NCBI GenBank assembly: GCA_903926465.1
Contig: CAIYJE010000119.1
Coordinates: 62,001 to 126,000, forward strand
Source of the DNA: an uncultured Planctomycetales bacterium
Lineage (GTDB): Bacteria; Planctomycetota; Planctomycetia; Isosphaerales; Isosphaeraceae
Reading direction: 5' to 3'
Length of the DNA stretch: 64,000 nucleotides
Shown here in pieces: positions 18,132 through 32,803 of the stretch (positions are counted from its first letter, which is position 1; the number at the start of each line of letters is the position of its first letter). The translations under genes were made by a program, and so were the position numbers. The notes beneath the pieces were generated by a model. It made no database searches. It worked only from the letters and a program-made list of their open reading frames with translations, and was not told the DNA's origin.

Positions 18132-18401
18132 CCAGCAACCGAGTTGTCGAACTTGCAATCCACCCGCTTCGGGATTCGCACAAACCAAGCCAGGGACCAC
18201 GGCCTGTGTTGGCCAGTGCCCCTGGCCTGGAACCTGGCTCGGAATCCCTCCCGCAAAGCCCAGCACACTGGCCCCTTGACCCGCATCAGGCCGTGGCTTC
18301 AGACTGGAACCATCGAGCGCCCACCCCAGCAACCGCTGATTCTCACACCCCAGTTTTCCATTTCGGTTCCCATGCCGCGCACTGAGAAAGTGAGGGACTT
18401 C

Positions 18402-19223
18402 ATGACCCGGCTTCCGCTTACTCTGGCCCTGTTCCTGGCCGTCAGCGTTTCTTGCCGGTTCGCATCCGCGGCCGGTTTTCCTGATAAGAATCTGGAAACC
18501 GCCGTCCGTGGGGCCCTGCACCTGGATGACAAGGTCGAACTTTCAGACGACAAGCTCAAAGATTTGTTCGTTCTGGAAGCACCCAAGAAGCAAATCAAAG
18601 ATCTTTCTGGCCTGGAAAAGTGCCCAAACCTCGCACTTTTGAACCTGGCCAAGAACGAAATCACCGGCATTGGTCCCCTTGAGAACCTGATCAACATTCA
18701 GTCCCTGGATCTCTCGGGCAATGCCATCACCGACGTGGGGCCGCTCGCCAAACTCGTGAAACTGCAGTACCTCAACCTGGCGAACAACCAGATTGAGAAG
18801 ATTGAACCCCTTGCCGGGCTCACCGCCATGTCTGCCCTGGACCTGGGCCAGAACAAGGTGGCAGACATCACCCCGGTTGGCGGCATGAAGAAGCTAGCTT
18901 CGCTTTATCTGGCCTCAAACCAGGTTGTCAATCTGGGCCCGCTCGGCGAAACGACCAGAATCTCGACCCTGGAACTGAGCGACAACCCGTTAACCGACCT
19001 GGCCCCGCTGGGCAAGCAGACCGACCTGAACTTGTTCATCATGGAACGGACCAAGGTGACCGACCTTGGACCGCTGGTTGCCTGGGCCAAGGCCGACTCG
19101 GAAGGCTCGAAGCGATTCGCGCCCTTCTTGCGGCTTTACCTGAAGGGGAACGAACTGACCGAACAGGCCAAGAACGAACAACTAGCCGCCCTGAAGGCGA
19201 TCGGCGTCCGGATCGACTTCTGA
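18402..19223 (+). CDS. Exported leucine-rich-repeat protein (internalin-like)
   Basis: A 273-residue protein with a signal peptide (MTRLPLTLALFLAVSVS, cleavage probably after ASA). About eight 22-residue leucine-rich repeats of the internalin type follow, for example LQYLNLANNQIEKIEPLAGL and LDLSGNAITDVGPLAKL. The LRR fold is a protein-binding surface and the partner is unknown. ATG 18402 has GAGGGA upstream and gives a good signal peptide. An in-frame ATG at 18372 and a longer open frame to 18144 are unlikely. A hairpin at 19232-19263 follows. Confidence 0.87.
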   Translation: MTRLPLTLALFLAVSVSCRFASAAGFPDKNLETAVRGALHLDDKVELSDDKLKDLFVLEAPKKQIKDLSGLEKCPNLALLNLAKNEITGIGPLENLINIQSLDLSGNAITDVGPLAKLVKLQYLNLANNQIEKIEPLAGLTAMSALDLGQNKVADITPVGGMKKLASLYLASNQVVNLGPLGETTRISTLELSDNPLTDLAPLGKQTDLNLFIMERTKVTDLGPLVAWAKADSEGSKRFAPFLRLYLKGNELTEQAKNEQLAALKAIGVRIDF

Positions 19224-19762: not shown

Positions 19763-21940
19763 TTATTGACCAAAAACCGGCGGCTGATTGCACCAGTGTG
19801 TCCACATAGAGCGGTAGGCCACCTCCACGTTTCTCGCGAATCGCGGCCCATCCATCAACGGCGAAGCCTGCATATCCAAGCGAAGCGTGCGTTTGAACTG
19901 GTTCAGTTTCAGGGGGTCGCCAGCCAGTTCCACCGCCGTTCGCACATAGCTCGCCTGGTCATAAGCCACCAGCTCTGGATGACCGACGTTCGATAAAATG
20001 CTCAGTCCGCCCCGGCTTACCGCAGCCAAACCCGCAAGACTGACCACCGGCACTCCCATCCACAGGGCATCACAGGTGGTGGTTCCCCCACCGTATGGAA
20101 ATGGGTCCAAGGCCACGTCTATCTGGTTGTAGCACTCAAAGTATTCCTTACCAGACAGGTACTCCACAAAGCGTACACGGTCCAGGGAAATGCCATGCGT
20201 CTCGAATGCATGATCCACTCGACTGCGATGAGAACCTCGGTGCGTGTGAAGCAACAGCCTTGAGCCTGGCACCAGACGCATCATCTGGCACCAAGCCTCA
20301 AGAACCCTGGGCCCCACCTTACAAAAGTTGTTCAGTGAGCCAAAGCAGATCGGCCCAGCGCCCCTGAAAACTCTTAGCTCCAGAGACCGTGCCAGTTCAG
20401 GCGGATCATAGCACCAGTAGGTCTCTGGCAAGACAAACGATTCTTCTGAATAAAAGGGGCGTTGCTCACCCGGTGGGTCCAGGTAGCGGTCGGTTAACCG
20501 ATAGTCCATCGCATCAAGCCCCGTGGTTCCGCAGTAGGCCAGGTAAGTCACCTGGACCGGGGAAGGCTTTCTTGCAAAGACGAGTAATCGGTTCCTGGCG
20601 CTATGCATGCTCAGGTCAACCAGGACATCAATCTGGTCAGCTCTGATCCTGGCGTCAAGCTGGCTGTCGGACAATGCCCGAACATCGCGCCAGATATCGG
20701 CTCGTGATCGACATTCATCGGTGAGTTCGTCAGGCCCGCTGACCGATGAGTAACAGACAATTTCAAACGCCTGATGGTCATGCGAAACCAGTAAGGGGAG
20801 CAAATAACGTCCAACCGGGTGCAAATAGAAATCAGGAGACACATAACCAATGCGTAGCCGACGATCTGGATCTTTGTCATTGGCGTGCGGCTTGATCTCG
20901 TGAGCCCACGATTGTGCATGTCTTTCGTTCCAGGAACGATGCTCTTCCAGGGTCGTGCCGGGTTCACCCGAGTCCATGAACAGTTTTGTGAAGAGCAGGT
21001 TACTGTGAAGCGAAGGGGATGATGGCGAATATACAAGCGCGCGTTCAAAGGTGGCAACGGCTTCTTGAATGTGCCCCTGAAGGGTCTGAACATGCCCCAG
21101 GTTATTCAAGGCATCTTGGTGATCGGGCTTGATCTTCAAGGCAAGCTGAAAATACGAAATCGCATCATCCAGTTTCCGCTGCTTGCTGTAGACATTTCCA
21201 AGACTCACAATCGCATCCAGATGATCGGGCCTTAGCTGCAAGCACAAAGAAAAACTAACAATCGCGGCGGCATCTTGACCGAGCGCGCTCAACGTTTGGC
21301 CCAGATTCAGTTGAGCATCGAGATAGTCAGGAACCAGCTCAAGAGCCCTTTGAAAGCACGGCACGGCGGTGTCCAGGTTTCCCTGGAGATTCAAGACCAC
21401 GCCCAGGTTGTTGTGAGCCGCGGCATATCCAGGCCGAAGGGAAATTGCATGACGGTAACAGAGAATGGCCTGCTCAAGCTCTCCGCGCTTCTTATAAAGA
21501 TTGCCAAGATTGTTTCGAGTCTCACTGAGGTCGGGTCTTCGTTCAACCGCCCGGAGATAGCAAGCCAAAGACTCATCAAGTTGACCCAAGTCTGATAACA
21601 CATCACCCAGATTGTGATACGCAATAGCATAATCTGGGTTGAGTTTAAGAGCTTGCCGATGCAGAGATGCGGCTCCCTGAAGATCTCCTTGATCTTTCAA
21701 CACGGAACCCAGATCACTGTAGGCTTCACAATGCGCGGGCCTGAGTTCAATAGATCGTTTGATGAGGGATTCAGCGGCCTGTAGATTTCCTTCATGTTGC
21801 GCAATCAGACCGAGAAGATGCATGGCCACAGGCTGATCGGGTTCCACCTGGAGAATCTGACGATAGATCGATGCGGATTCTGAAAGATTCCCCGATTGAT
21901 GGTATTGGATGGCCAGGGAAAGCGCTTCAGAGATCGTCAT
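19763..21940 (-). CDS. TPR / SPINDLY-type O-GlcNAc transferase-like protein (GT41)
   Basis: A ~725-residue protein. About nine TPR units (residues 1-335, for example AIAYHNLGDVLSDLGQLDES) precede a GT41 catalytic region. This shows RRLRIGYVSPDFYLHPVG (with the histidine corresponding to the catalytic-site His of OGT), VLVDLSMHSARNRLLVFARK, VTYLAYCGTTGLDAMDYRLT, FGSLNNFCKVGP (donor-binding Lys) and PYGGGTTTCDALWMGVPVV. GT41 enzymes transfer GlcNAc or another sugar to proteins, with the TPRs choosing the substrate. The start is ATG 21940 (MTISEALSLA), aligned with its paralogs; the frame is open to 21988. It is the last large gene of a four-gene operon, 96 bases after its neighbour. Its true sugar donor is unknown. 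Confidence 0.9.
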   Translation of the reverse strand: MTISEALSLAIQYHQSGNLSESASIYRQILQVEPDQPVAMHLLGLIAQHEGNLQAAESLIKRSIELRPAHCEAYSDLGSVLKDQGDLQGAASLHRQALKLNPDYAIAYHNLGDVLSDLGQLDESLACYLRAVERRPDLSETRNNLGNLYKKRGELEQAILCYRHAISLRPGYAAAHNNLGVVLNLQGNLDTAVPCFQRALELVPDYLDAQLNLGQTLSALGQDAAAIVSFSLCLQLRPDHLDAIVSLGNVYSKQRKLDDAISYFQLALKIKPDHQDALNNLGHVQTLQGHIQEAVATFERALVYSPSSPSLHSNLLFTKLFMDSGEPGTTLEEHRSWNERHAQSWAHEIKPHANDKDPDRRLRIGYVSPDFYLHPVGRYLLPLLVSHDHQAFEIVCYSSVSGPDELTDECRSRADIWRDVRALSDSQLDARIRADQIDVLVDLSMHSARNRLLVFARKPSPVQVTYLAYCGTTGLDAMDYRLTDRYLDPPGEQRPFYSEESFVLPETYWCYDPPELARSLELRVFRGAGPICFGSLNNFCKVGPRVLEAWCQMMRLVPGSRLLLHTHRGSHRSRVDHAFETHGISLDRVRFVEYLSGKEYFECYNQIDVALDPFPYGGGTTTCDALWMGVPVVSLAGLAAVSRGGLSILSNVGHPELVAYDQASYVRTAVELAGDPLKLNQFKRTLRLDMQASPLMDGPRFARNVEVAYRSMWTHWCNQPPVFGQ

Positions 21941-22036
21941 GATCAGGCATCCAGAGACACGAGTTGGTAAACGATTGGTTGACGGCACTGGGAACGACCA
22001 GCAAAAGCGCCATACTTGATCAACGGAGGCGTTGGC

Positions 22037-23866
22037 TCAGGGGCGAGCCGAATGCCATTGAGTAAGAGCCTTTGAAATACGCTCAAAGACATCGTCCCAG
22101 ACGTTTAATTTCGATTGGCGAAAGATCCGTACGCTGGGGTACCACGGAGAATCTTCACGTTCTGTGAGCCATCTCCACTCGGCTTTGAAAGAGCAAGCAA
22201 GCCAGGTGGGAACACCAAGCGCACCCGCAAGGTGCGCCGGTGCCGAGTCTATGGTCACAATCACGTCCATGAGTGACATGAGCGCAGCGGAATCTAAAAA
22301 CGGATCAGACTCCCGGCCTGGATCGTGTGGGAAACACTCCAGAGAGAGTTGATCACTTAAAGCGGAAATCTGCTCAACTCCGTGAGTCTTCTGAAAGCTG
22401 AATAATCGAATACCGGGAACGGATGCCAGTGGAATGAAAGACCGCAGTGGAATTGAGCGGTGACGATCACCCGTATGAATGGGGTTCCCTTGCCAGGCAA
22501 TCCCAACACGTAGTTCACCGGGACCGCGCTCACCCAGTTGCTCACGCCAATAATCAAGATATGCTTGAGGGGCGTGAAGGTAAGGGACAGGGAGAACCGA
22601 TGGAACATCTTCAAGTGAAATATCGAGAATACCTGGCAAGCTCATCAGAGGAGCATACACGTTAAAGTGTGGTAAGGGGTCGCCCTCGCAGATCACACGG
22701 TCTACGCCTGGAATTTCTGACAGAAGCGAAACGAGTGATTTGGGGCAGTTGAACAGTACATGAGCACCGCGCTGCTTGACCTGATTTGCAAATCGGACGA
22801 ATTGAATGGTGTCTCCCAACCCCTGTTCAGCGAGCAGCAGAATGGTCTTCTCTGTAATCGTTTCGCCGGTCCACTCGGGCTGGCTGAGTACCGGTTTCTT
22901 GACATCTTTCCTGGTCCATCGGTACCCATATTTCTGGAATCCCTCCGCATAATTTCCCACAGCCAGCAGAACTACGCTCAGGTTGAAGTGGGCATCGCCA
23001 TAGTCTGGCTTCAAGACCAAGGCCTGACGCAAGTACCCAATAGCCTCTTCAAGATTCCCCTGAACAATCAACGCATTCCCAAGGTTATTATGTGCCTCTG
23101 GAAAGTTGGGGTTCAACTCAAGGGCCTTGCGAAAACAGGAAATCGCTTGTTCCACACAATCCTGTTCCCCATAGGCAATGCCAAGATTATTGTGTGCGTC
23201 CGCGGAATCTGGATCAAACTGCAGGTAATGCCGATACACCTCAACAGATTCACGAAACTTCCCATGATCTTTCAAGGCATTTGCCAGGTGGATGACTGCC
23301 ATCCTGGAGTTTCCATCGAGCGACAATGCTTGACGGAAATAAGGGATCGCTTCCGGCAGTTTCTCCATGTGCCGTAAGGCAACACCAGCATTCAACCAAT
23401 AGCCGCTATGGCCTGGCTCTTGCTCAACCGCTTGCAGATAACAGGTCAAAGCGGCTTCGAATTGCGAATTTTCAATCAGGCAATTCCCAAGATTATTGAG
23501 CGCCGCGGCAGACCGCGGATTGATGGCCACGACCGTTTGAAATGAAGTGATCGCCGTTTCCAGATCTCCTTCAGCTCTCTGCAGATTGCCAAGCCTGAAC
23601 CAGGTATCCACGTGGTATGGCTGAACGTCCAGAATGCGTCGATAAAGCATGGCGGCTTCGCCGGAATGCCCCAGCAACTGCTTGATATCTGCGAGCATCA
23701 GCATCGCAGGAACTTCGTCAGGAAAAGCGGAAAGAACCTGCCGACAGATCTCTTGCGCCTCTTCAATCAGACCTGCTTTCAGGCGTGTGTGCGCCAGGTC
23801 TAAAGCCTGATCCACCGTCATGGGAGGGGTCACATACGTGCCGGATTGCGTCTGAGTCATGGTCAT
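22037..23866 (-). CDS. TPR protein fused to GT9-like glycosyltransferase domain
   Basis: A ~609-residue protein. TPR units fill residues ~10-325 (DSADAHNNLGIAYGEQDCVE, EAHNNLGNALIVQGNLEEAI). The C-terminal ~275 residues form a GT-B domain resembling family GT9 (ADP-heptose:LPS heptosyltransferases). Its elements are AEQGLGDTIQFVRFANQVKQ, RVGIAWQGNPIHTGDRHRSI and the donor-site strand VTIDSAPAHLAGALGVPTW. There is no signal peptide. The start codon ATG 23866 overlaps the stop of the upstream gene as ATGA, so the two are probably translationally coupled; a GTG at 23872 is also in frame. The target is presumably a protein or envelope glycan, by inference from the fusion. Confidence 0.85.
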   Translation of the reverse strand: MTMTQTQSGTYVTPPMTVDQALDLAHTRLKAGLIEEAQEICRQVLSAFPDEVPAMLMLADIKQLLGHSGEAAMLYRRILDVQPYHVDTWFRLGNLQRAEGDLETAITSFQTVVAINPRSAAALNNLGNCLIENSQFEAALTCYLQAVEQEPGHSGYWLNAGVALRHMEKLPEAIPYFRQALSLDGNSRMAVIHLANALKDHGKFRESVEVYRHYLQFDPDSADAHNNLGIAYGEQDCVEQAISCFRKALELNPNFPEAHNNLGNALIVQGNLEEAIGYLRQALVLKPDYGDAHFNLSVVLLAVGNYAEGFQKYGYRWTRKDVKKPVLSQPEWTGETITEKTILLLAEQGLGDTIQFVRFANQVKQRGAHVLFNCPKSLVSLLSEIPGVDRVICEGDPLPHFNVYAPLMSLPGILDISLEDVPSVLPVPYLHAPQAYLDYWREQLGERGPGELRVGIAWQGNPIHTGDRHRSIPLRSFIPLASVPGIRLFSFQKTHGVEQISALSDQLSLECFPHDPGRESDPFLDSAALMSLMDVIVTIDSAPAHLAGALGVPTWLACSFKAEWRWLTEREDSPWYPSVRIFRQSKLNVWDDVFERISKALTQWHSARP

Positions 23867-26800
23867 GAACACTCCCTGGCGAGCATGGTCAGTTCACGCG
23901 TAAGCCGTTCAAACAAACTCTCCCACTCCAGCAAGGCCGACTGCCTGAAAATCCGAACGCTCGGGTACCAGGGAGTCTCTTCTCGATCTCTCATCCACCG
24001 CCAATCTGCATTGAGAGGACAAAGCAACCAGGTCCGAACACCGAGCGCGCCCGCAAGATGCACCGGTGCGGAATCTACGCTGATCATCACATCCATCAGC
24101 GATAGCAGAGCCGCGGTATCCTGAAAGGAATCCACCTCATTGCCAGATTCTCGTTCCAGCCGAGTCACGCAAAGCCGATACGCGTTAGCCTCAATTTGCT
24201 CGGCACCAAAATTCCGCTGGAAGTTGATCAATCGGACACCAGGAACCGAAGCCAGCGGAATAAATTCCGAGAGGGGAATTGACCGGAAACGATCTCCCAC
24301 GTGAGCAGGGTTCCCCTGCCAGGCAATGCCTACACGAATCTCTCCGGGTTGTCTGGGGCCAAGTCGATCACGCCAGTACTCAACAAGTGGCAATTGCGGC
24401 TTCAGATAGGGCGCCGGCAACAGACATGGAATATCTTCGAGCCTCGTCTTCAAAATGGAAGGAAGACTGAGTAGCGGCACATAATAGTCAAAGGGAGGGA
24501 TGGGATCCCCTTCCGCCACAAGAATGTCCAGGCCTGGGACCTGGCTGAGCAATTTCGCCAGCGGCTTGAAACAACCCAGCAAGACCGTTGCGCCTCTGGC
24601 CTTCAACAGCGTCAAGAAACGGACGAACTGGATCGTATCTCCCAGACCAAATTCGCAACACACCAGAATCGTTTTGCCGGCGATCGATTCACCCTTCCAG
24701 ACCGGTTGCTCAAACGAGAATTGATGCGATCCCTGGAGCTTCCAGCGGTACTCAAATTCTCGAAATCCGTTGACATAATCACCCAGTGAAAGCAGAGCAT
24801 GCCCCAGATTATGGTGAGCGTCTGCTAAAGGCGTTGAACAGGCGATGGCCCGCTGGAAGCACTCAATGGCCTCTGGAACCTGTGCTTTCTCATTCAGTGA
24901 TACGCCAAGATTGTTATGAGCCGCCTGGTTCATGGGATCAAGTTCGATGGCGCGGCGAAACTGCTCGATGGCCGCATCACGCTTTCCCTGGCGCATGAAT
25001 GCGTGACCCAGAGCGCCATGGGTTCCAGAGACCCCAGGCCATCGTTCCAAGGCGCGAAGATAAATGGCCCCAGCTTCATCGTATCGACCAGCATCCATCA
25101 AGCATTCGCCAAGTCCATGATGCGCGATCGAAAGCCCAGGATCCCATTCCAACGCATTCTGAAATGCCGAAATCGCTTCAAGATTTTGACCCAACCTCCT
25201 GAGCGCAAGACCAAGATCACAGTAAACCTGAGCACGATCAGGCTGAATTGCAAGCGAACGACGGTAGAAATCCATGGCTTCACCCAAGTGTCCGGTCTGT
25301 GAAGCCACATTCCCCAGCAGATGCCATGCCTGGGAATGATCAGGACATGCACGTACCACCTGTAAACAAAGCTCACGACACCTGGCAAGCTGCCCAGTTC
25401 GCAGGTACTCGTTGGCGGTGCTCAATGACTCGGAGACCCACTCGCCGGACGAGTCACCACCGCCAGCCATTCGGGCTGAGAGTAAAGTCAGTTCCCTGAC
25501 CATACGTGCAACCACATCGTCCCACTGGTTGCGACGAGTCTGGCGGAAGATGCGAACACTGGGATACCATGGAGAATCGTCGCGACCAACCAACCAGCGC
25601 CATTCAGGATTGACCGGGCACAGCAGCCAGGCCGGTACCCCCACAGCTCCCGCAAGATGCACCGGAGCCGAATCAATTGTGACTACAACGTCCATCAGCG
25701 ACATCAAGGCCGCTGAGTCTTGAAACGAATCGACATCGGGGCGCGGGCCCTGTTCAAAACAGTCGATTTTCATTCGATCTTGCAACGGCGCAATTTGCTC
25801 GGTGCCAAGATTCTTCTGGAACGAGATCAGGCGAATGCCAGGCACCGAGGCCAACGGTACCAGGCTTGCCAGCGGGATGGAACGATAACGGTCGCGAACA
25901 TGTTTAGGGTTCCCTTGCCAGGCAATTCCAACGCGAACTTCTCCGGGCAGTCGCGGGCCGAGCCGCTGTTTCCAGTAGTGTCGATCTGTTTTCTCGGCCT
26001 GAAGATAAGGTACAGGAAGCACATCAGGAATCTGATTCAGCTTCACACCCAGGAGCGCGGGCAAGCTCATCAGAGGAGCGTAAACATCAAATGCGGGTAG
26101 TGGATCCCCCTCGGGAATCACACGGTCTACCCCGGGAACCTTGGCCAGCAGCTTCACAAGTGGCCTGACGCATGCAAACAGAACGGTTGCACCCTGCTGC
26201 TTGACCAGCGAAGCAAAGCGAATGAACTGAATAGTATCGCCTAGGCCCTGTTCACAAACCAGAAGGATCGTTTTACCAACCAGAGACTCACCACTCCACT
26301 GCGGCTGAACATGGTTCGGTCGTTTAGTCTCTGCGCGCTTCCAGCGGTAATCATACTCCCGAAAACCATCGACATAATCACCAATCGTGAGAAGCGTATC
26401 TGCCAGATTGTAGTGGGCTTCAACATAGTCGGGCTTAAGTTCTAGTGATCGTCGGAATCGCTCAATAGCACCCGCGTAATCATCGTCTGAGAGTAACGTC
26501 ATCCCCAGGTTACAGTACGCCTCTGGCGACTCTGGCTTGAGTTCCAGCACACGCTGGTAACACGCCTTGGCCTCAGAGACCCGATCTTGCTCCATCAGGG
26601 CATTACCTAGACGCAGGTACACATCAGGGTCATCAGATCCTACCTCAAGTTCCGCGCGGAAGCAGCTCTCGGCGTCCTGGAACCGCCGCTGCTCTATATA
26701 AGCTTTTCCAAGATTGGCCTGGGCTTCACGGAACCTTGGTTTCAGCTCAATCGCACGCCGGCAATACGCAACGGCTTCATCATGCCTGCCCACATCGCAT

Positions 26801-27456
26801 AGAGTTCGGCCAAGATTGTTGTAAGCATCTGCATCACCGGGCGCAAGCTCGATCCCTTTTTGAAAACAGGTAATCGCCTGCGTTTTGTCCCCTTGCTCGC
26901 TCAGGACCACACCAAGATTATTGTGCGCGGGGGCGTAATGGGGCTTCAATTCCAGGGCACGACGGTAACGGGCAATGGCGGCGTCTGGTTGGCCCTGCAT
27001 TTTCAAAAGATTGCCGAGGCTACTGTGCGATTCGGCAAGATCTGGCCGAAGCTCCAGCGCTCGTTCAAAACAGCCGAGAGCCTCTTCCAAATCTCCGCGT
27101 TCCGTCAGGGTATCGCCCATGTTGTGATGGGCAATCGTAGATCGAGGATCCAGTGTCAAAGCATGACGATAGACCTCGATGGCTTCCTCAACGCTCCCCT
27201 GCTGCCTGAGCAAGCCAGCCAGGTCGACATAAACATCGGGATAATGCGGATTCTGTGCGATGGCTCGCCGGTAGAACCGATCTGCTTCGGTAGGATTCCC
27301 TGTCTGCTGAGCGATCAAACCCAGACGGTGAGTTGCCACGGCATGGCCTGGATCTACTTGCAAAATCTGCAAATAAATCTGCTCTGCTACGGAAAGTCGT
27401 CCCGAGCAATGATGTTCGTATGCAAGCGAGAGTGCCTCTGACACGGTCATCGACAT
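23863..27456 (-). CDS. Double-module TPR / GT9-like glycosyltransferase fusion
   Basis: A ~1197-residue protein made of two complete copies of the TPR + GT9-like architecture. Module 1 has ~11 TPRs (to ~375) and a glycosyltransferase domain (~380-655; CEQGLGDTIQFIRFASLVKQ, RVGIAWQGNPKHVRDRYRSI, VTIDSAPVHLAGAVGVPAW). A short Ser/Gly linker follows. Module 2 has ~6 TPRs (~670-890) and a second domain (~905-1195; CCEFGLGDTIQFVRFLTLLK, RVGIAWQGNPAHVGDRFRSI, ISVDSAPVHLAGALGVRTW). Both modules keep the conserved motifs, so both could be active. The start is ATG 27456 with AAGGA upstream; the frame opens at 27477. It is the second gene of the operon and overlaps the next by four bases. Confidence 0.85.
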   Translation of the reverse strand: MSMTVSEALSLAYEHHCSGRLSVAEQIYLQILQVDPGHAVATHRLGLIAQQTGNPTEADRFYRRAIAQNPHYPDVYVDLAGLLRQQGSVEEAIEVYRHALTLDPRSTIAHHNMGDTLTERGDLEEALGCFERALELRPDLAESHSSLGNLLKMQGQPDAAIARYRRALELKPHYAPAHNNLGVVLSEQGDKTQAITCFQKGIELAPGDADAYNNLGRTLCDVGRHDEAVAYCRRAIELKPRFREAQANLGKAYIEQRRFQDAESCFRAELEVGSDDPDVYLRLGNALMEQDRVSEAKACYQRVLELKPESPEAYCNLGMTLLSDDDYAGAIERFRRSLELKPDYVEAHYNLADTLLTIGDYVDGFREYDYRWKRAETKRPNHVQPQWSGESLVGKTILLVCEQGLGDTIQFIRFASLVKQQGATVLFACVRPLVKLLAKVPGVDRVIPEGDPLPAFDVYAPLMSLPALLGVKLNQIPDVLPVPYLQAEKTDRHYWKQRLGPRLPGEVRVGIAWQGNPKHVRDRYRSIPLASLVPLASVPGIRLISFQKNLGTEQIAPLQDRMKIDCFEQGPRPDVDSFQDSAALMSLMDVVVTIDSAPVHLAGAVGVPAWLLCPVNPEWRWLVGRDDSPWYPSVRIFRQTRRNQWDDVVARMVRELTLLSARMAGGGDSSGEWVSESLSTANEYLRTGQLARCRELCLQVVRACPDHSQAWHLLGNVASQTGHLGEAMDFYRRSLAIQPDRAQVYCDLGLALRRLGQNLEAISAFQNALEWDPGLSIAHHGLGECLMDAGRYDEAGAIYLRALERWPGVSGTHGALGHAFMRQGKRDAAIEQFRRAIELDPMNQAAHNNLGVSLNEKAQVPEAIECFQRAIACSTPLADAHHNLGHALLSLGDYVNGFREFEYRWKLQGSHQFSFEQPVWKGESIAGKTILVCCEFGLGDTIQFVRFLTLLKARGATVLLGCFKPLAKLLSQVPGLDILVAEGDPIPPFDYYVPLLSLPSILKTRLEDIPCLLPAPYLKPQLPLVEYWRDRLGPRQPGEIRVGIAWQGNPAHVGDRFRSIPLSEFIPLASVPGVRLINFQRNFGAEQIEANAYRLCVTRLERESGNEVDSFQDTAALLSLMDVMISVDSAPVHLAGALGVRTWLLCPLNADWRWMRDREETPWYPSVRIFRQSALLEWESLFERLTRELTMLARECS

Positions 27457-27542
27457 TCCATCCTTACCTGGAGCCACAAGAGTGGTCTCTGCGTGGGGGC
27501 TGATCTTGCCATGAAATGGCCTGGCTTCAATGTGAGCAAACC

Positions 27543-30035
27543 TTATTCACTCTGTTTGGCTTCAGACCAGTTCGCCCACATCGTGCGAAACGCAGCTTCG
27601 AGATGTTTGGTGAACCGCGGCTGATCCATCACGGGCGAAGCCTGCATGGTGGCTCTTAGCGTTTGCCGTAGCCGGGCCAACCTTGGCAGGTCGTTCGCCA
27701 GTTCCACCGCAATCTGCACGTATTCCGCACGATCTTGGGCCACCAGTTCAGAATGGCCAAGGTTCGACAGGATGCTCAAACCACCTCGCCCCACACCGGT
27801 CTGGCCTGCCAGGCTCACCACCGGCACCCCCATCCAGAGCGCATCGCATGTGGTGGTTCCGCCACCATACGGAAAGGGATCGAGCGCAATATCCATGGTG
27901 TTGTAGGTGGCAAAATAGTCAGCGGCCGGTCGAAATTCCGCGAACCGAACCCGATCGGGTGAGATCCCCTGCTCAATCAGGGCCAGAATGGCTCGTTCGC
28001 GATGACTACCCGCATGCGCATGGATCAGTAACGTGGAGCCTGGAACCGCCTTCAGAATCTGGCACCACACCGAAAATGTTTCTGGTGTGACCTTACAGAA
28101 ATTGTTCAATGACCCAAAACAAACGCTTCCAGTCTCCAGGGCAGGCAGCGACTTGACCGGGGGAGCCAGCTCGGTTGGCTCATAACACCAGTACGTTTCT
28201 GGTAAATGGACAGACTTCTCGGAATAGAACGCCTGGTCCGTTCCTACCGGGTCGATGTAGGGATCGGTCAGTCGGTAATCGATCGCACTCAGTCCGGTCG
28301 TTCCACAGTACGCAAGATACGTCACCTGCACAGGAGCCGGCTTACGCGCAAACACCAGTAACCGGTTGTTTGCCATGTGCATCGTCAAATCCACGAGAAT
28401 GTCAATTTGATCATTCCGAATCAGGTCGGCCATCTGCTCATCCGTGAGACCGTTGGTTTTTTGCCAGCGATCACTTTTTGAACGACACTGGTCGGTCATT
28501 GGATCCGGGGTACGAACCGAGGAATAGCATGTCACTTCAAACTGGTTTCGGTCATGCGCAGCCAGCAAAGGCAGCATGAAACGCCCAACCGGATGCCGGT
28601 AAAAGTCTGGTGATACATAACCAATGCGAAGCCGGCGATCCGTCAAACGGTCATTCAGGTGAGGCTTCCGGAACTTTGCCAGCGGCAAGGCGTGCTGCTG
28701 GTCCCAACGCCGGTGTTCCGCAAACAGGCTTTCCTGAGTTTCTTGGTCCCTGAAGTGCTGGGTATAGAGCATGTTACTATGTAGATCACTCGAATTCGGC
28801 CTGAATTTCAAAGCCGATCGAAAGCAGTCAATTGCTTCATCCAGTCTTCCTTGATCTTTCAAGGCAATTCCCAGGTTGCTATACGCATCCGGATATTCCG
28901 GCCTGACCTCAATCGCGCGCTGGAAGCAGGAGATCATCTCATCAACTTCGCGCGTCTCCTTGCCCCCCATCCCGAGAGCGGCCCCCAGGCTGTTATAAGC
29001 CTCGGCCAGCAAAGGATCGAGCGTGATCGCCTGCCGAAGGTAAGGCACGGCGAACTCTGGTTTTCTTTGATCCAGGAAGCTGTTTCCCTGGTTCAGATAC
29101 CACTGCGCGTTTTCAGAACTCCGCTCTGTGGGTGGAGTGAGTTCCGGCCTGATCGCTGGAAGTTGCTCCTGCCGCTGAAAGGCCATTCTCAGGTTATTCT
29201 GGGCATCAACGAAATTGGGGCTGAGCTGAAGCGCTTGACGAAAACAGGCAATAGCCTCTGACAGTTTTCCTAGCTCAGTTAAGGCCACGCCAAGATTATT
29301 GTGCGCCTGGGCATAGTCGGGTTTCCGTTGAATCGCTCTACGGAACTGCTCGATCGCCTGTTCGGGCATCCCTCGGGCCACAAAAAGATTGCCCAGATTG
29401 TAATGCCCATCCACAAATCCAGGGTCAACACGAAGGGCGTTGCTGTAACTCTCAATTGCGCCTGCGGAATCGCCCAGCATCGCCAGCAGATTACCAAGAT
29501 TATTATGAATGCTGGCATCGTTGGGACTCAGCTCCACAGCACGGCGAAAACAACGGCCAGCCGGCTCAAGCTTGCCCGCGACCTGAAGCGCAGTTCCCAT
29601 CCCCGAGATCGTGATCACAGACTGGGCATCAAGCTTCAACGCGCTTTGAAAACAGGCAACGGCATCGTCTGCCTTTCCATTCTCAACAAGGGCGTACCCC
29701 AGTTGATGGTACCCCTTCAACAAGTCCGGCCTCAGTTCTACAACCCGTCGAAAATGGGAAATGGCTTCCTCTCTCTTGCCAGATTGCTTGAGGGCGGCCC
29801 CCAAGTTACTGTGTGCCTCGGCATAGTCAGGCTGAATTCCCAGCGCACGCCGGTACAGAAGTTCGGCTTCCGAAAGCTGCCCACCCTGATGCGCGATCAA
29901 GCCCAGAAGATGAATCGCTACCGCTTGATCGGGATCAACCTCCAGGACCTGCCGATAAATCTGCTCAGCAAGATTCAGCCGACCAAGCTGATGGTGCTCC
30001 ATCGCCATGGACAGTGCTTCTGAAATTGTGGCCAT
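27543..30035 (-). CDS. TPR / SPINDLY-type O-GlcNAc transferase-like protein (GT41)
   Basis: An 830-residue paralog of the protein at 19763-21940, with more TPR units: residues 1-300 and again ~315-430 after a Pro/Gln-rich interruption. The GT41 region (~465-825) has RRLRIGYVSPDFYRHPVG, ILVDLTMHMANNRLLVFARK, VTYLAYCGTTGLSAIDYRLT, FGSLNNFCKVTPE and PYGGGTTTCDALWMGVPVV. The catalytic-site histidine (in HPVG) and donor-site lysine (in FCKV) are present. It is the first gene of the four-gene minus-strand operon, starting at ATG 30035 (MATISEALSMAMEHH). It is probably cytoplasmic and modifies proteins, by analogy with OGT/SPINDLY. Substrate and donor cannot be told from sequence. Confidence 0.92.
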   Translation of the reverse strand: MATISEALSMAMEHHQLGRLNLAEQIYRQVLEVDPDQAVAIHLLGLIAHQGGQLSEAELLYRRALGIQPDYAEAHSNLGAALKQSGKREEAISHFRRVVELRPDLLKGYHQLGYALVENGKADDAVACFQSALKLDAQSVITISGMGTALQVAGKLEPAGRCFRRAVELSPNDASIHNNLGNLLAMLGDSAGAIESYSNALRVDPGFVDGHYNLGNLFVARGMPEQAIEQFRRAIQRKPDYAQAHNNLGVALTELGKLSEAIACFRQALQLSPNFVDAQNNLRMAFQRQEQLPAIRPELTPPTERSSENAQWYLNQGNSFLDQRKPEFAVPYLRQAITLDPLLAEAYNSLGAALGMGGKETREVDEMISCFQRAIEVRPEYPDAYSNLGIALKDQGRLDEAIDCFRSALKFRPNSSDLHSNMLYTQHFRDQETQESLFAEHRRWDQQHALPLAKFRKPHLNDRLTDRRLRIGYVSPDFYRHPVGRFMLPLLAAHDRNQFEVTCYSSVRTPDPMTDQCRSKSDRWQKTNGLTDEQMADLIRNDQIDILVDLTMHMANNRLLVFARKPAPVQVTYLAYCGTTGLSAIDYRLTDPYIDPVGTDQAFYSEKSVHLPETYWCYEPTELAPPVKSLPALETGSVCFGSLNNFCKVTPETFSVWCQILKAVPGSTLLIHAHAGSHRERAILALIEQGISPDRVRFAEFRPAADYFATYNTMDIALDPFPYGGGTTTCDALWMGVPVVSLAGQTGVGRGGLSILSNLGHSELVAQDRAEYVQIAVELANDLPRLARLRQTLRATMQASPVMDQPRFTKHLEAAFRTMWANWSEAKQSE

Positions 30036-31041: not shown

Positions 31042-31470
31042 GATTCAGAGCTCTTGCAGCTTAAAATGGAACACTGCTTACAGCCTCGGCGGATCAGAAA
31101 TACCCGAGATTGACTTTTTTAATCTACGTCTCTCCTTCCAGCCCCCGCCACAAAATATTTTGCAGAAGTTCAATCAGATTCCAGATTTGAACCTTCAGAG
31201 CAAGGAAGCCCCAGCCTTGAAAGTGGCACAGACGATAACCACCGCTGAACAGCGGCCGAGAAAATCGGGTTTGGCAAAAACATGCGGAACAGTATCTCTT
31301 CAGCGCCAGGAGACAGGTTCCGTAAGATGTTTGAGGTTGAGCTGCTTGGACTTCTCAGAACTTGTACCGATTCGAATGTTATTCTTAGGTGATGTTCGGG
31401 TGCACATGGCTTTTGGAAAGCGATGGTCGCCTCGCGGCCTGGTCTCGTTTTCTGTCAGAGGTGGTTTTTG
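31042..31470. other. Divergent intergenic region upstream of hddC
   Basis: About 430 bases between the TIGR03067 pseudogene and hddC, AT-rich in its first third. Open frames crossing it lack any protein-like pattern. It probably contains the hddC promoter. AGAGGTGG at 31457-31464 is the hddC ribosome binding site. Confidence 0.5.
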
Positions 31471-32205
31471 ATGTCTCTTGATGTTGGTCGAGTCCGGGTG
31501 TTGCTTCTGGCGGGCGGCCTGGGCACTCGCTTACGTCCACTCACGGACCATACACCGAAGTGCCTGGTTCCGGTTGCAGGACGCCCATTGCTGGACTACT
31601 GGCTGGACCGTTTCCGCGAAGCAGGTCTCCGGGACCTGCGAATCAATACGCACCATTTGCCAGAGGCTGTCAGAGAGTACATCGATAGGGTGAACGCGAC
31701 CTCTGAGTTTCGCATGAGCGAGGCGTATGAAGCCCAGCTCCTGGGCTCGGCCGGAACGGTCATGGCAAACCGCGACCTGGCCGATGATGCAAGCGAGATT
31801 CTGATTGTTTATGCAGATAACTTCTCAAACGTTGATCTGAATGAGCTGCTTCGTTTTCATCGGAGCCACGGCGATCCCATGACCATGATGCTCTTCAGGG
31901 CTCCCCATCCGGAAAACTGCGGAATTGCCACACTCGATGCCGAGCACCGAATCATTGATTTCGTGGAGAAGCCCAAAAACCCCACGAGTGACCTCGCCAA
32001 CGCGGGCCTGTACGTTTTATCACAAGAAGCGTACAAGGAAATCGCCGATATGCAGGTCTTCGACATTGGTTTTGACGTTCTGCCACGTTTCCTGAACCGG
32101 ATGCGAGGATGGGCCTCGCCAGGGTTCCACCTGGACATTGGCACACACGAAGCCCTTGAGAAGGCTCAGACTCTCTCCACGCAACTGGAACAAGGAAAGC
32201 GTTGA
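31471..32205 (+). CDS. hddC: Sugar-1-phosphate nucleotidyltransferase, probably heptose-1-P guanylyltransferase
   Basis: A 244-residue nucleotidyltransferase with the signature VRVLLLAGGLGTRLRPLTDH at the N-terminus, the PKCLVPVAGRPLLDYWLDR motif, and the metal-site region ILIVYADNFSNVDL. Its length, and the adjacent gmhB one base later, match D-glycero-D-manno-heptose 1-phosphate guanylyltransferase (HddC), which forms GDP-heptose. A mannose- or glucose-1-phosphate nucleotidyltransferase is the alternative, and substrate cannot be fixed from motifs. The start is ATG 31471; an in-frame codon at 31423 is not supported. The stop TGA is separated from the gmhB ATG by a single base, a tight operon. 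Confidence 0.8.
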   Translation: MSLDVGRVRVLLLAGGLGTRLRPLTDHTPKCLVPVAGRPLLDYWLDRFREAGLRDLRINTHHLPEAVREYIDRVNATSEFRMSEAYEAQLLGSAGTVMANRDLADDASEILIVYADNFSNVDLNELLRFHRSHGDPMTMMLFRAPHPENCGIATLDAEHRIIDFVEKPKNPTSDLANAGLYVLSQEAYKEIADMQVFDIGFDVLPRFLNRMRGWASPGFHLDIGTHEALEKAQTLSTQLEQGKR

Positions 32206-32206
32206 A

Positions 32207-32803
32207 ATGAATCCGCGCCCGGCTGTCTTTCTCGACCGCGACGGCACCATTATTGAAGCCGTCCATTATCTGAGCGACCCCCAGGCCGTGCGGCTCATTC
32301 CTGACGTAGCCCCTGCGCTCCTGGAGCTTCAGGCCGCCGGATTTGCCTGCATTCTGATCACGAACCAGTCTGCCATCGGACGAGGCATTCTGAGCCTCGA
32401 AGGGTTTTACCGCGTTCAGGCAGAAGTCTACCGCCAGCTTTGCGAGCATGGAATTCAACTGGATGGCTGTTACTTTTGCCCAAGTGTTCCGACCTCCAGC
32501 GATCGATCGGTCCTGGACGACCCCGAGCGCAAGCCTGCGCCTGGGATGATCCTGCGGGCCTGCCGTGAGTTAAACCTCCAGGTCAATCGCTCATGGATGA
32601 TCGGTGATATGCTATCCGACGTCCTGGCGGGACGGAACGCGGGCTGCAGAGATTCTCTTTTTGTGACGTGTGGACAGGGGTCTCACGAAGACCTCACCGG
32701 CCATGACGCCAAGGTCTTTCCCAATGTCGCAACCGCAGCCAACCATATTCTGAAGATTCACCGAGCTTTTCCACATCCTGAGCCACGGCCCGATCATTCC
32801 TGA
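32207..32803 (+). CDS. gmhB: D-glycero-D-manno-heptose 1,7-bisphosphate phosphatase
   Basis: A 198-residue HAD phosphatase of the GmhB/HisB-N type. The nucleophile motif is FLDRDGTI, motif II is ILITNQSAIGRG, a zinc-binding Cys region lies in GCYFCPSVP, the Lys is in ERKPAPGM, and the terminal motif is WMIGDMLSDVLAG. GmhB removes the C7 phosphate of heptose 1,7-bisphosphate, the step directly before nucleotide activation. AAGGAAAG precedes ATG 32207. Coupling to hddC gives two consecutive steps of activated-heptose synthesis. GmhA and the heptose kinase are not in this window. The second cysteine pair of the zinc loop is not obvious (V/P/T replaces it). Confidence 0.87.
   Translation: MNPRPAVFLDRDGTIIEAVHYLSDPQAVRLIPDVAPALLELQAAGFACILITNQSAIGRGILSLEGFYRVQAEVYRQLCEHGIQLDGCYFCPSVPTSSDRSVLDDPERKPAPGMILRACRELNLQVNRSWMIGDMLSDVLAGRNAGCRDSLFVTCGQGSHEDLTGHDAKVFPNVATAANHILKIHRAFPHPEPRPDHS

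Follow-up and report, generated by a model that had tools for sequence, protein, structure and literature searches.

A TPR-linked operon of GT41 and GT9-fold glycosyltransferases in an Isosphaeraceae planctomycete, probably for cytoplasmic protein glycosylation

Positions 19763 to 30035 of the window (the whole 64,000-nucleotide stretch of DNA analyzed here, from an uncultured Planctomycetales bacterium of the family Isosphaeraceae) carry glycosyltransferases of two families, GT41 and GT9-like (GT9L), behind the same kind of TPR scaffold in one operon. What would such a set glycosylate, and would its enzymes act together? We think it probable (roughly 0.6) that the four genes serve TPR-guided O-glycosylation of protein in the cytoplasm, in the working manner of FlmG and SPINDLY, and that the acceptor is a protein other than flagellin. 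By this mechanism, the TPR arrays with their common N-terminal cap would hold a single acceptor protein, or a few such proteins, in the cytoplasm; the two GT41 and three GT9-fold domains would transfer sugars to it from nucleotide-sugar donors, modifying multiple Ser/Thr residues or building up one short glycan step by step; and the glycosylated acceptor would then be exported to the cell surface. We infer a protein acceptor, a cytoplasmic site, and sequential action, and, as an earlier note on this DNA had proposed, the addition of more than one sugar to proteins of this bacterium.

Five catalytic domains on TPR arrays

The region contains four minus-strand open reading frames (ORFs) of 741, 611, 1204, and 830 aa, numbered here genes 1 to 4 by coordinate and transcribed in the order gene 4 (GT41), gene 3 (double GT9-like), gene 2 (GT9-like), and gene 1 (GT41). 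In total they encode five catalytic domains, two SPINDLY-like GT41 and three GT9-fold, each behind a TPR array. Gene 4, the first in the operon (27543 to 30035; 830 aa), was assigned from its ORF, Pfam, and phmmer; its TPR array (about aa 5 to 440; 28716 to 30023; placed by Pfam and identity comparison) includes the cap common to genes 1, 3, and 4 and precedes a GT41 domain delimited by alignment with SPINDLY (aa 462 to 830; 27546 to 28652). Gene 3 (23863 to 27477; 1204 aa) has the layout TPR-GT9L-TPR-GT9L by ORF and Pfam, with array 1 at 26383 to 27438 and array 2 at 24778 to 25440, the limits of both being approximate; its two GT9-like domains (25471 to 26376 and 23866 to 24777, respectively) were placed by motif alignment, which for the first included the modeled domain described below. 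Gene 2 (22037 to 23872; 611 aa) couples a TPR array to one GT9-like domain (22040 to 22951, from the AlphaFold model), and gene 1, the last in the operon (19763 to 21988; 741 aa), couples one to a GT41 domain (19766 to 20878, from alignment with that of gene 4); both gene assignments rest on ORF and Pfam. The likely start of gene 1 is an internal ATG at 21940.

The earlier note had described four minus-strand genes with gaps under 100 bases and one ATGA overlap, in the order GT41, double GT9-like, GT9-like, GT41, all with TPR arrays; the ORFs lie at exactly these coordinates, and Pfam and the ORFs agree on the domain order. The gap between genes 4 and 3 is 65 bp and that between genes 2 and 1 about 96 bp, counted from the likely gene 1 ATG, while the middle pair, genes 3 and 2, overlaps as ATGA; such spacing implies co-expression. 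No terminator-like site lies within the intergenic gaps (11 in the region, versus a shuffle mean of 12.3). Immediately past the end of the operon, a gene on the other strand (18144 to 19223) encodes a leucine-rich-repeat protein with an apparent signal peptide inside a long N terminus.

The assignment of genes 1 and 4 to GT41 holds: their Glyco_transf_41 scores (155 and 190 bits, respectively) are well over the Pfam cutoff of 25, and equivalents of SPINDLY K665 and H495 are present. The two domains are 62% identical, and among solved structures plant SPINDLY (SPY; phmmer with gene 4, 1.4e-141) is the nearest. Aligned with SPY, gene 4 keeps the equivalents of D491, H495, K665, and Y744; K648 of gene 4 corresponds to K665, the H495 counterpart is also a histidine, and both are kept in gene 1 as well. 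In SPINDLY, K665 is the catalytic/phosphate-binding lysine and H495 an active-site histidine (PMC9715652, PMC10027727). From the SPY GDP-fucose-binding set (S496, K689, Y744, T747, and E752), Y744 alone is kept here. S496 is replaced by P, T747 by G, and E752 by D, and K689, the guanine-contacting lysine, is replaced by H in these GT41 domains; H728 is also changed, to Y. The K689A mutation abolishes SPY activity (PMC10027727). Because these donor-binding residues are replaced, we do not predict that GDP-fucose is used.

The three GT9-like domains are 56 to 63% identical to the first of them, and gene 3 matches Glyco_transf_9 (PF01075) at 39.9 bits (Pfam cutoff, 22). Structure modeling was needed because sequence searches of the PDB gave no firm match for them: plain phmmer found nothing at an E value of 1, and a GT9L profile found a sole match, 3tov, at 0.06. 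AlphaFold, given a 29-sequence alignment, modeled the gene 2 domain with a pLDDT of 89.3 and a pTM of 0.89. By VIA-align, the closest structures to this model are 3tov, a GT9 structure (Z = 18.9), WaaF (17.5), WaaC (16.8), and TibC (16.3); plant NDH subunits follow at Z = 14.6 to 15.3, and the remaining structures are at about 12 or less. The model thus supports the GT9-like assignment of the earlier note, predicting a GT9 fold of the GT-B type that is closest to heptosyltransferases. All three domains keep the GLGD Asp, an invariant Arg-Ser motif, and DSAxxHLAG (D47, R165, D235, and H240 in each), and hhalign places D235..H240 on the corresponding motif of WaaC and WaaF. From established knowledge of WaaC, we take the GLGD Asp to be the catalytic base and the D...H motif to line the donor side. 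A loss of the donor site, which the earlier note would have read as evidence against a shared pathway, was not what we found: the donor motifs are intact and the fold is that of GT9. Judged by alignment, all five catalytic domains of the operon appear intact at key donor-site residues.

The earlier note also had two glycosyltransferase folds on the same kind of TPR scaffold, and this agrees with our comparison of the N termini. Pfam finds TPRs in all four genes; a count of the Asn ladder in them, being TPR-consensus-like, we set aside. Over the N-terminal ~120 aa, gene 3 (GT9L) is 48 to 49% identical to genes 1 and 4 (GT41), which are themselves 47% identical; the remaining GT41 paralogues in the host, except for a copy on contig 55, are mostly 33 to 42% identical to the operon caps. 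At about 34% identity to the other three, the N terminus of gene 2 is more distant. What the cap tracks is membership of the operon, along with the contig-55 copy, rather than catalytic family, and the shared N terminus exceeds generic TPR similarity. This pattern points to a scaffold that was exchanged between, or has a common origin across, the two catalytic types. The claim that three proteins share their very N terminus stands for genes 1, 3, and 4, with a correction of where it begins: the longest ORFs of genes 1 and 3 have 9 to 16 extra residues, so the common segment starts at an internal ATG in both.

Order not conserved in relatives, pairing recurrent in other phyla

The operon order is not conserved in related genomes, where the earlier note had proposed to search for it; by that note's own criterion this outcome speaks against a shared pathway. 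GT9L occurs in 34 and GT41 in 25 of 99 relatives at the stringency used, and none of the same-contig pairs in these 99 genomes are adjacent, a count in which contig breaks could hide cases. Nor do GT41 and GT9L occur together at any of 40 fetched relative loci; in complete relative genomes they are at least about 70 kb apart, and Singulisphaera acidiphila, a cultured member of the family, has both but unlinked. A single-protein scan of genome contigs gave no match. Within the family, GT9L is present in about 20 of 44 other members. The host genome has seven GT41 genes; GT9L was not found near the five outside the operon. The nearest GT9L by sequence (locus L081; 60% identity) consists of three tandem genes without GT41, on a contig that ends there. 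We built separate trees for the two catalytic domains. In the GT9L tree, the three window domains and those of L081 form a six-row clade (100/100); in the GT41 tree, genes 1 and 4 group with the contig-55 copy in a clade (100/99) confined to the host genome. Taken with the unconserved order, these clades identify the operon as a lineage-specific assembly.

The same order and clades, together with the number of GT41 genes, also fit a lineage-specific expansion of two TPR-glycosyltransferase families that came to lie side by side by local duplication, leaving four separate protein glycosyltransferases with separate substrates and no single machine. We consider this possible but doubtful, as the implied co-expression of the four genes speaks against it, as do a cap common to two catalytic types that are not close paralogues and the independent GT41/GT9L clusters and fusions in other phyla.

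TPR-GT9L genes are very common (at least 587 matches in a pattern scan of named genomes; GT9L in 92 of 240 alphaproteobacteria), and many of their proteins contain multiple modules: five in Microcoleus, for instance, and eight in Telmatospirillum. Mixed GT41/GT9L clusters make up 7 of the 80 best GT9L loci from other phyla, and at two of these seven both types are fused in a single polypeptide: a 2310-aa GT9L-GT9L-GT41-GT41 protein encoded directly beside a flagellin gene in a Geobacteraceae MAG (L107:8921-18893; WSYB01000017.1) and a 1130-aa GT41-GT9L protein in an alphaproteobacterium (L117). A third mixed locus, from Bryobacteraceae (L127), has the gene order GT9L, GT9L, GT41, GT41. Since the GT41 domains of the mixed clusters do not form one clade, the two types were probably brought together on more than one occasion; that the two types are fused or clustered in other phyla makes a joint function plausible.

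A flagellin gene lies within about 4 kb of 4 of the 7 mixed loci, compared with 4 of 73 GT9L-only loci (Fisher P = 0.0014, for lineages that are not independent and flanks that differ in length); the association of mixed loci with flagellin is thus suggestive. TPR, GT9L, and flagellin occur together at five loci (L069, L107, L111, L116, and L155), and in a flagellated relative within the class (G092) a triple GT9L protein adjoins flagellin. Flagellin was absent from the fetched stretches of all 16 alphaproteobacterial GT9L loci, and we rejected identification of FlmG by synteny in that class, no flagellin being detectable there.

These neighborhoods bear on whether the operon might instead build or modify a polysaccharide or an LPS-like lipid, with the TPRs docking the enzymes to a membrane complex. 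LPS is the substrate of the GT9-fold enzymes WaaC and WaaF, polysaccharide-type genes (GT2, GT4, and methyltransferase) surround some of the GT9L genes in other phyla, and a heptose-nucleotide-like gene pair lies near the operon; however, the SPINDLY/OGT-type layout of TPRs plus GT41 is known for protein acceptors, and mixed clusters elsewhere are often beside flagellin, as are TPR-GT9L genes at the five loci just listed. We regard a polysaccharide or lipid product as quite improbable.

Several other loci deserve mention. On plasmid p1 of Caballeronia grimmiae (L162:1-8888), a GT9L-bearing protein annotated as ShlB/FhaC is encoded near a filamentous haemagglutinin gene, a possible case of adhesin glycosylation and of misannotation. 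Filamentous cyanobacteria (L115, L118, L129, L133, L136, L144, L148, and L152) have a five-module TPR-GT9L gene apparently beside conserved UbiA-type prenyltransferase and methyltransferase genes. The TPR-GT9L genes of MAGs labeled Reyranella (L086) and Rhizobium (L088) closely resemble each other, and the contigs that bear them are alike, suggesting a wrong label on one of the two bins.

Acceptor and donor

We found no flagellin (PF00669) in 45 Isosphaeraceae genomes (the host and 44 family members), whereas it is present in 43 of the 54 genomes from elsewhere in the class. As the family has no detectable flagellin, the acceptor in Isosphaeraceae must be something else, and the operon is probably a flagellin-type protein-decorating kit that acts on a different protein. 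We rejected flagellin as the acceptor in the host, which has none detectable although flhA is present. Host FlhA is a strong match (746 bits; G000:C12, L232:11035-13221), a flagellar export gene kept without the filament protein. By analogy with the Caballeronia locus and its FHA-type adhesin, other exported surface proteins are plausible acceptors. Neither a recognizable acceptor gene nor an adhesin gene lies beside the operon, and we saw no recurrent partner next to the GT9L and GT41 loci of the family (DUF1559 and T2SSE appear twice each among 90 neighbors). Observations that count against a protein-glycosylation set are the unconserved order (at L081 as well), the lack of an acceptor gene beside the operon and of a recurrent partner in relatives, the lack of flagellin in the family, and the polysaccharide-type neighbors of some GT9L genes.

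Nucleotide-activated heptose is the classic donor for GT9 enzymes. Divergent from the operon, on the plus strand, are genes for a sugar-1-phosphate nucleotidyltransferase (31423 to 32205), whose best scores are ManC-, MurU-, and HddC-like with none over cutoff, and for a GmhB-like HAD phosphatase (32207 to 32803), a profile match under the equivalog cutoff. At a second locus (L234:5996-9838; G000:C172), HddA-, HddC-, GmhA-, and GmhB-like genes are packed closely together with one for a transaldolase. The cell may therefore make nucleotide-activated heptose, although none of the heptose-nucleotide-like enzymes at either locus scores over a curated equivalog cutoff. In relatives, the nucleotidyltransferase and GmhB-like phosphatase are fused into one protein (L235:6073-7392, L236, L237, L238, and L240), often followed by an NAD-dependent epimerase. 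The divergent pair is a possible donor supply for the operon; we did not accept it as a proven one, since its position by the TPR-glycosyltransferase operon is not conserved.

In a more specific form of the protein-glycosylation reading, the sugar moved by the GT9L modules would be heptose, its donor GDP- or ADP-heptose made by this pair, and protein would be heptosylated as it is by TibC. Their fold similarity to heptosyltransferases (Z = 16 to 19) extends to TibC, which modifies protein, and both the fusion of the pair in relatives and the second locus are consistent with heptose supply. The GT9 fold alone does not reveal the donor, however, no enzyme exceeds its equivalog cutoff, and the neighbors of the fused pair in relatives are epimerase and GT4 genes rather than TPR-glycosyltransferases. 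Heptose transfer in this form seems to us unlikely.

Comparison with known systems

The closest described system is the cytoplasmic, TPR-guided glycosylation of flagellin by FlmG in Caulobacter, because mixed GT41/GT9L clusters, including fusions, exist elsewhere and 4 of 7 are beside flagellin. FlmG of Caulobacter crescentus (CCNA_01524) has 596 aa, with TPRs at 1 to 313 and the glycosyltransferase domain at 309 to 596, and binding of flagellin by its TPRs and transfer by its glycosyltransferase domain, in the cytoplasm, have been shown experimentally (PMC7591256). Genes 1, 2, and 4 share its layout of N-terminal TPRs and a C-terminal GT-B domain, of which gene 3 is a tandem; gene 2 also matches it in size (611 versus 596 aa), a comparison by layout only. 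In several phyla, GT9L-type genes adjoin a flagellin gene. FlmG is a single gene with one glycosyltransferase domain, a pseudaminic acid donor, and flagellin acceptors, whereas the operon has five such domains of two types in a genome without flagellin. In light of FlmG and of the common multi-module TPR-GT9 proteins, the earlier statement that this is not a described system was too strong; the literature we searched contained no paper on GT41 in planctomycetes or on TPR clusters that mix GT41 with GT9.

Other systems match parts of the operon. SPINDLY and OGT share the TPR array, the GT41 domain, and the equivalents of K665 and H495, but the SPINDLY donor residues are replaced here and GT41 is paired with GT9-fold enzymes. 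WaaC, WaaF, and TibC share the fold and the GxGD and DSxxxH motifs at low sequence identity (12 to 17%), but the LPS enzymes are free-standing and TibC is an iron-containing dodecamer, whereas a TPR array is attached here. HMW1C, a GT41-type glycosyltransferase of adhesins, is not known to have a canonical long TPR array. It resembles the proposed set in glycosylating protein in the cytoplasm before export, and a GT9L gene elsewhere adjoins an FHA-type adhesin gene. It differs in that its reaction is N-glycosylation of one adhesin (PMC3012730); no adhesin gene is near the operon.

A bolder form of the protein-glycosylation reading is a cytoplasmic glycan assembly line, in which one GT41 would start a Ser/Thr sugar on a surface protein other than flagellin, the three modules of the GT9 type, perhaps adding heptose, would extend it, and the second GT41 would cap or branch it, all on the same TPR-held polypeptide and without a lipid carrier or oligosaccharyltransferase; the operon would then be an exapted flagellin-glycosylation kit that outlived its flagellin. 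We hold this to be a long shot.

What surprises most in these findings is less the operon itself than that unrelated bacteria have repeatedly paired and fused GT41 and GT9 modules, in many cases next to flagellin: two glycosyltransferase folds are linked to one protein-gripping scaffold, and the fusions in other phyla show that the pairing recurs. The flagellin neighborhoods offer an experimental entry point, in particular the single 2310-aa Geobacteraceae enzyme beside its probable substrate. Relative to FlmG and SPINDLY, the planctomycete operon would add more modules and a non-flagellin acceptor. If the planctomycete enzymes do act on another protein, bacterial TPR-guided cytoplasmic O-glycosylation would extend beyond flagella, and the scaffold could help to engineer protein glycans without recourse to lipid carriers.
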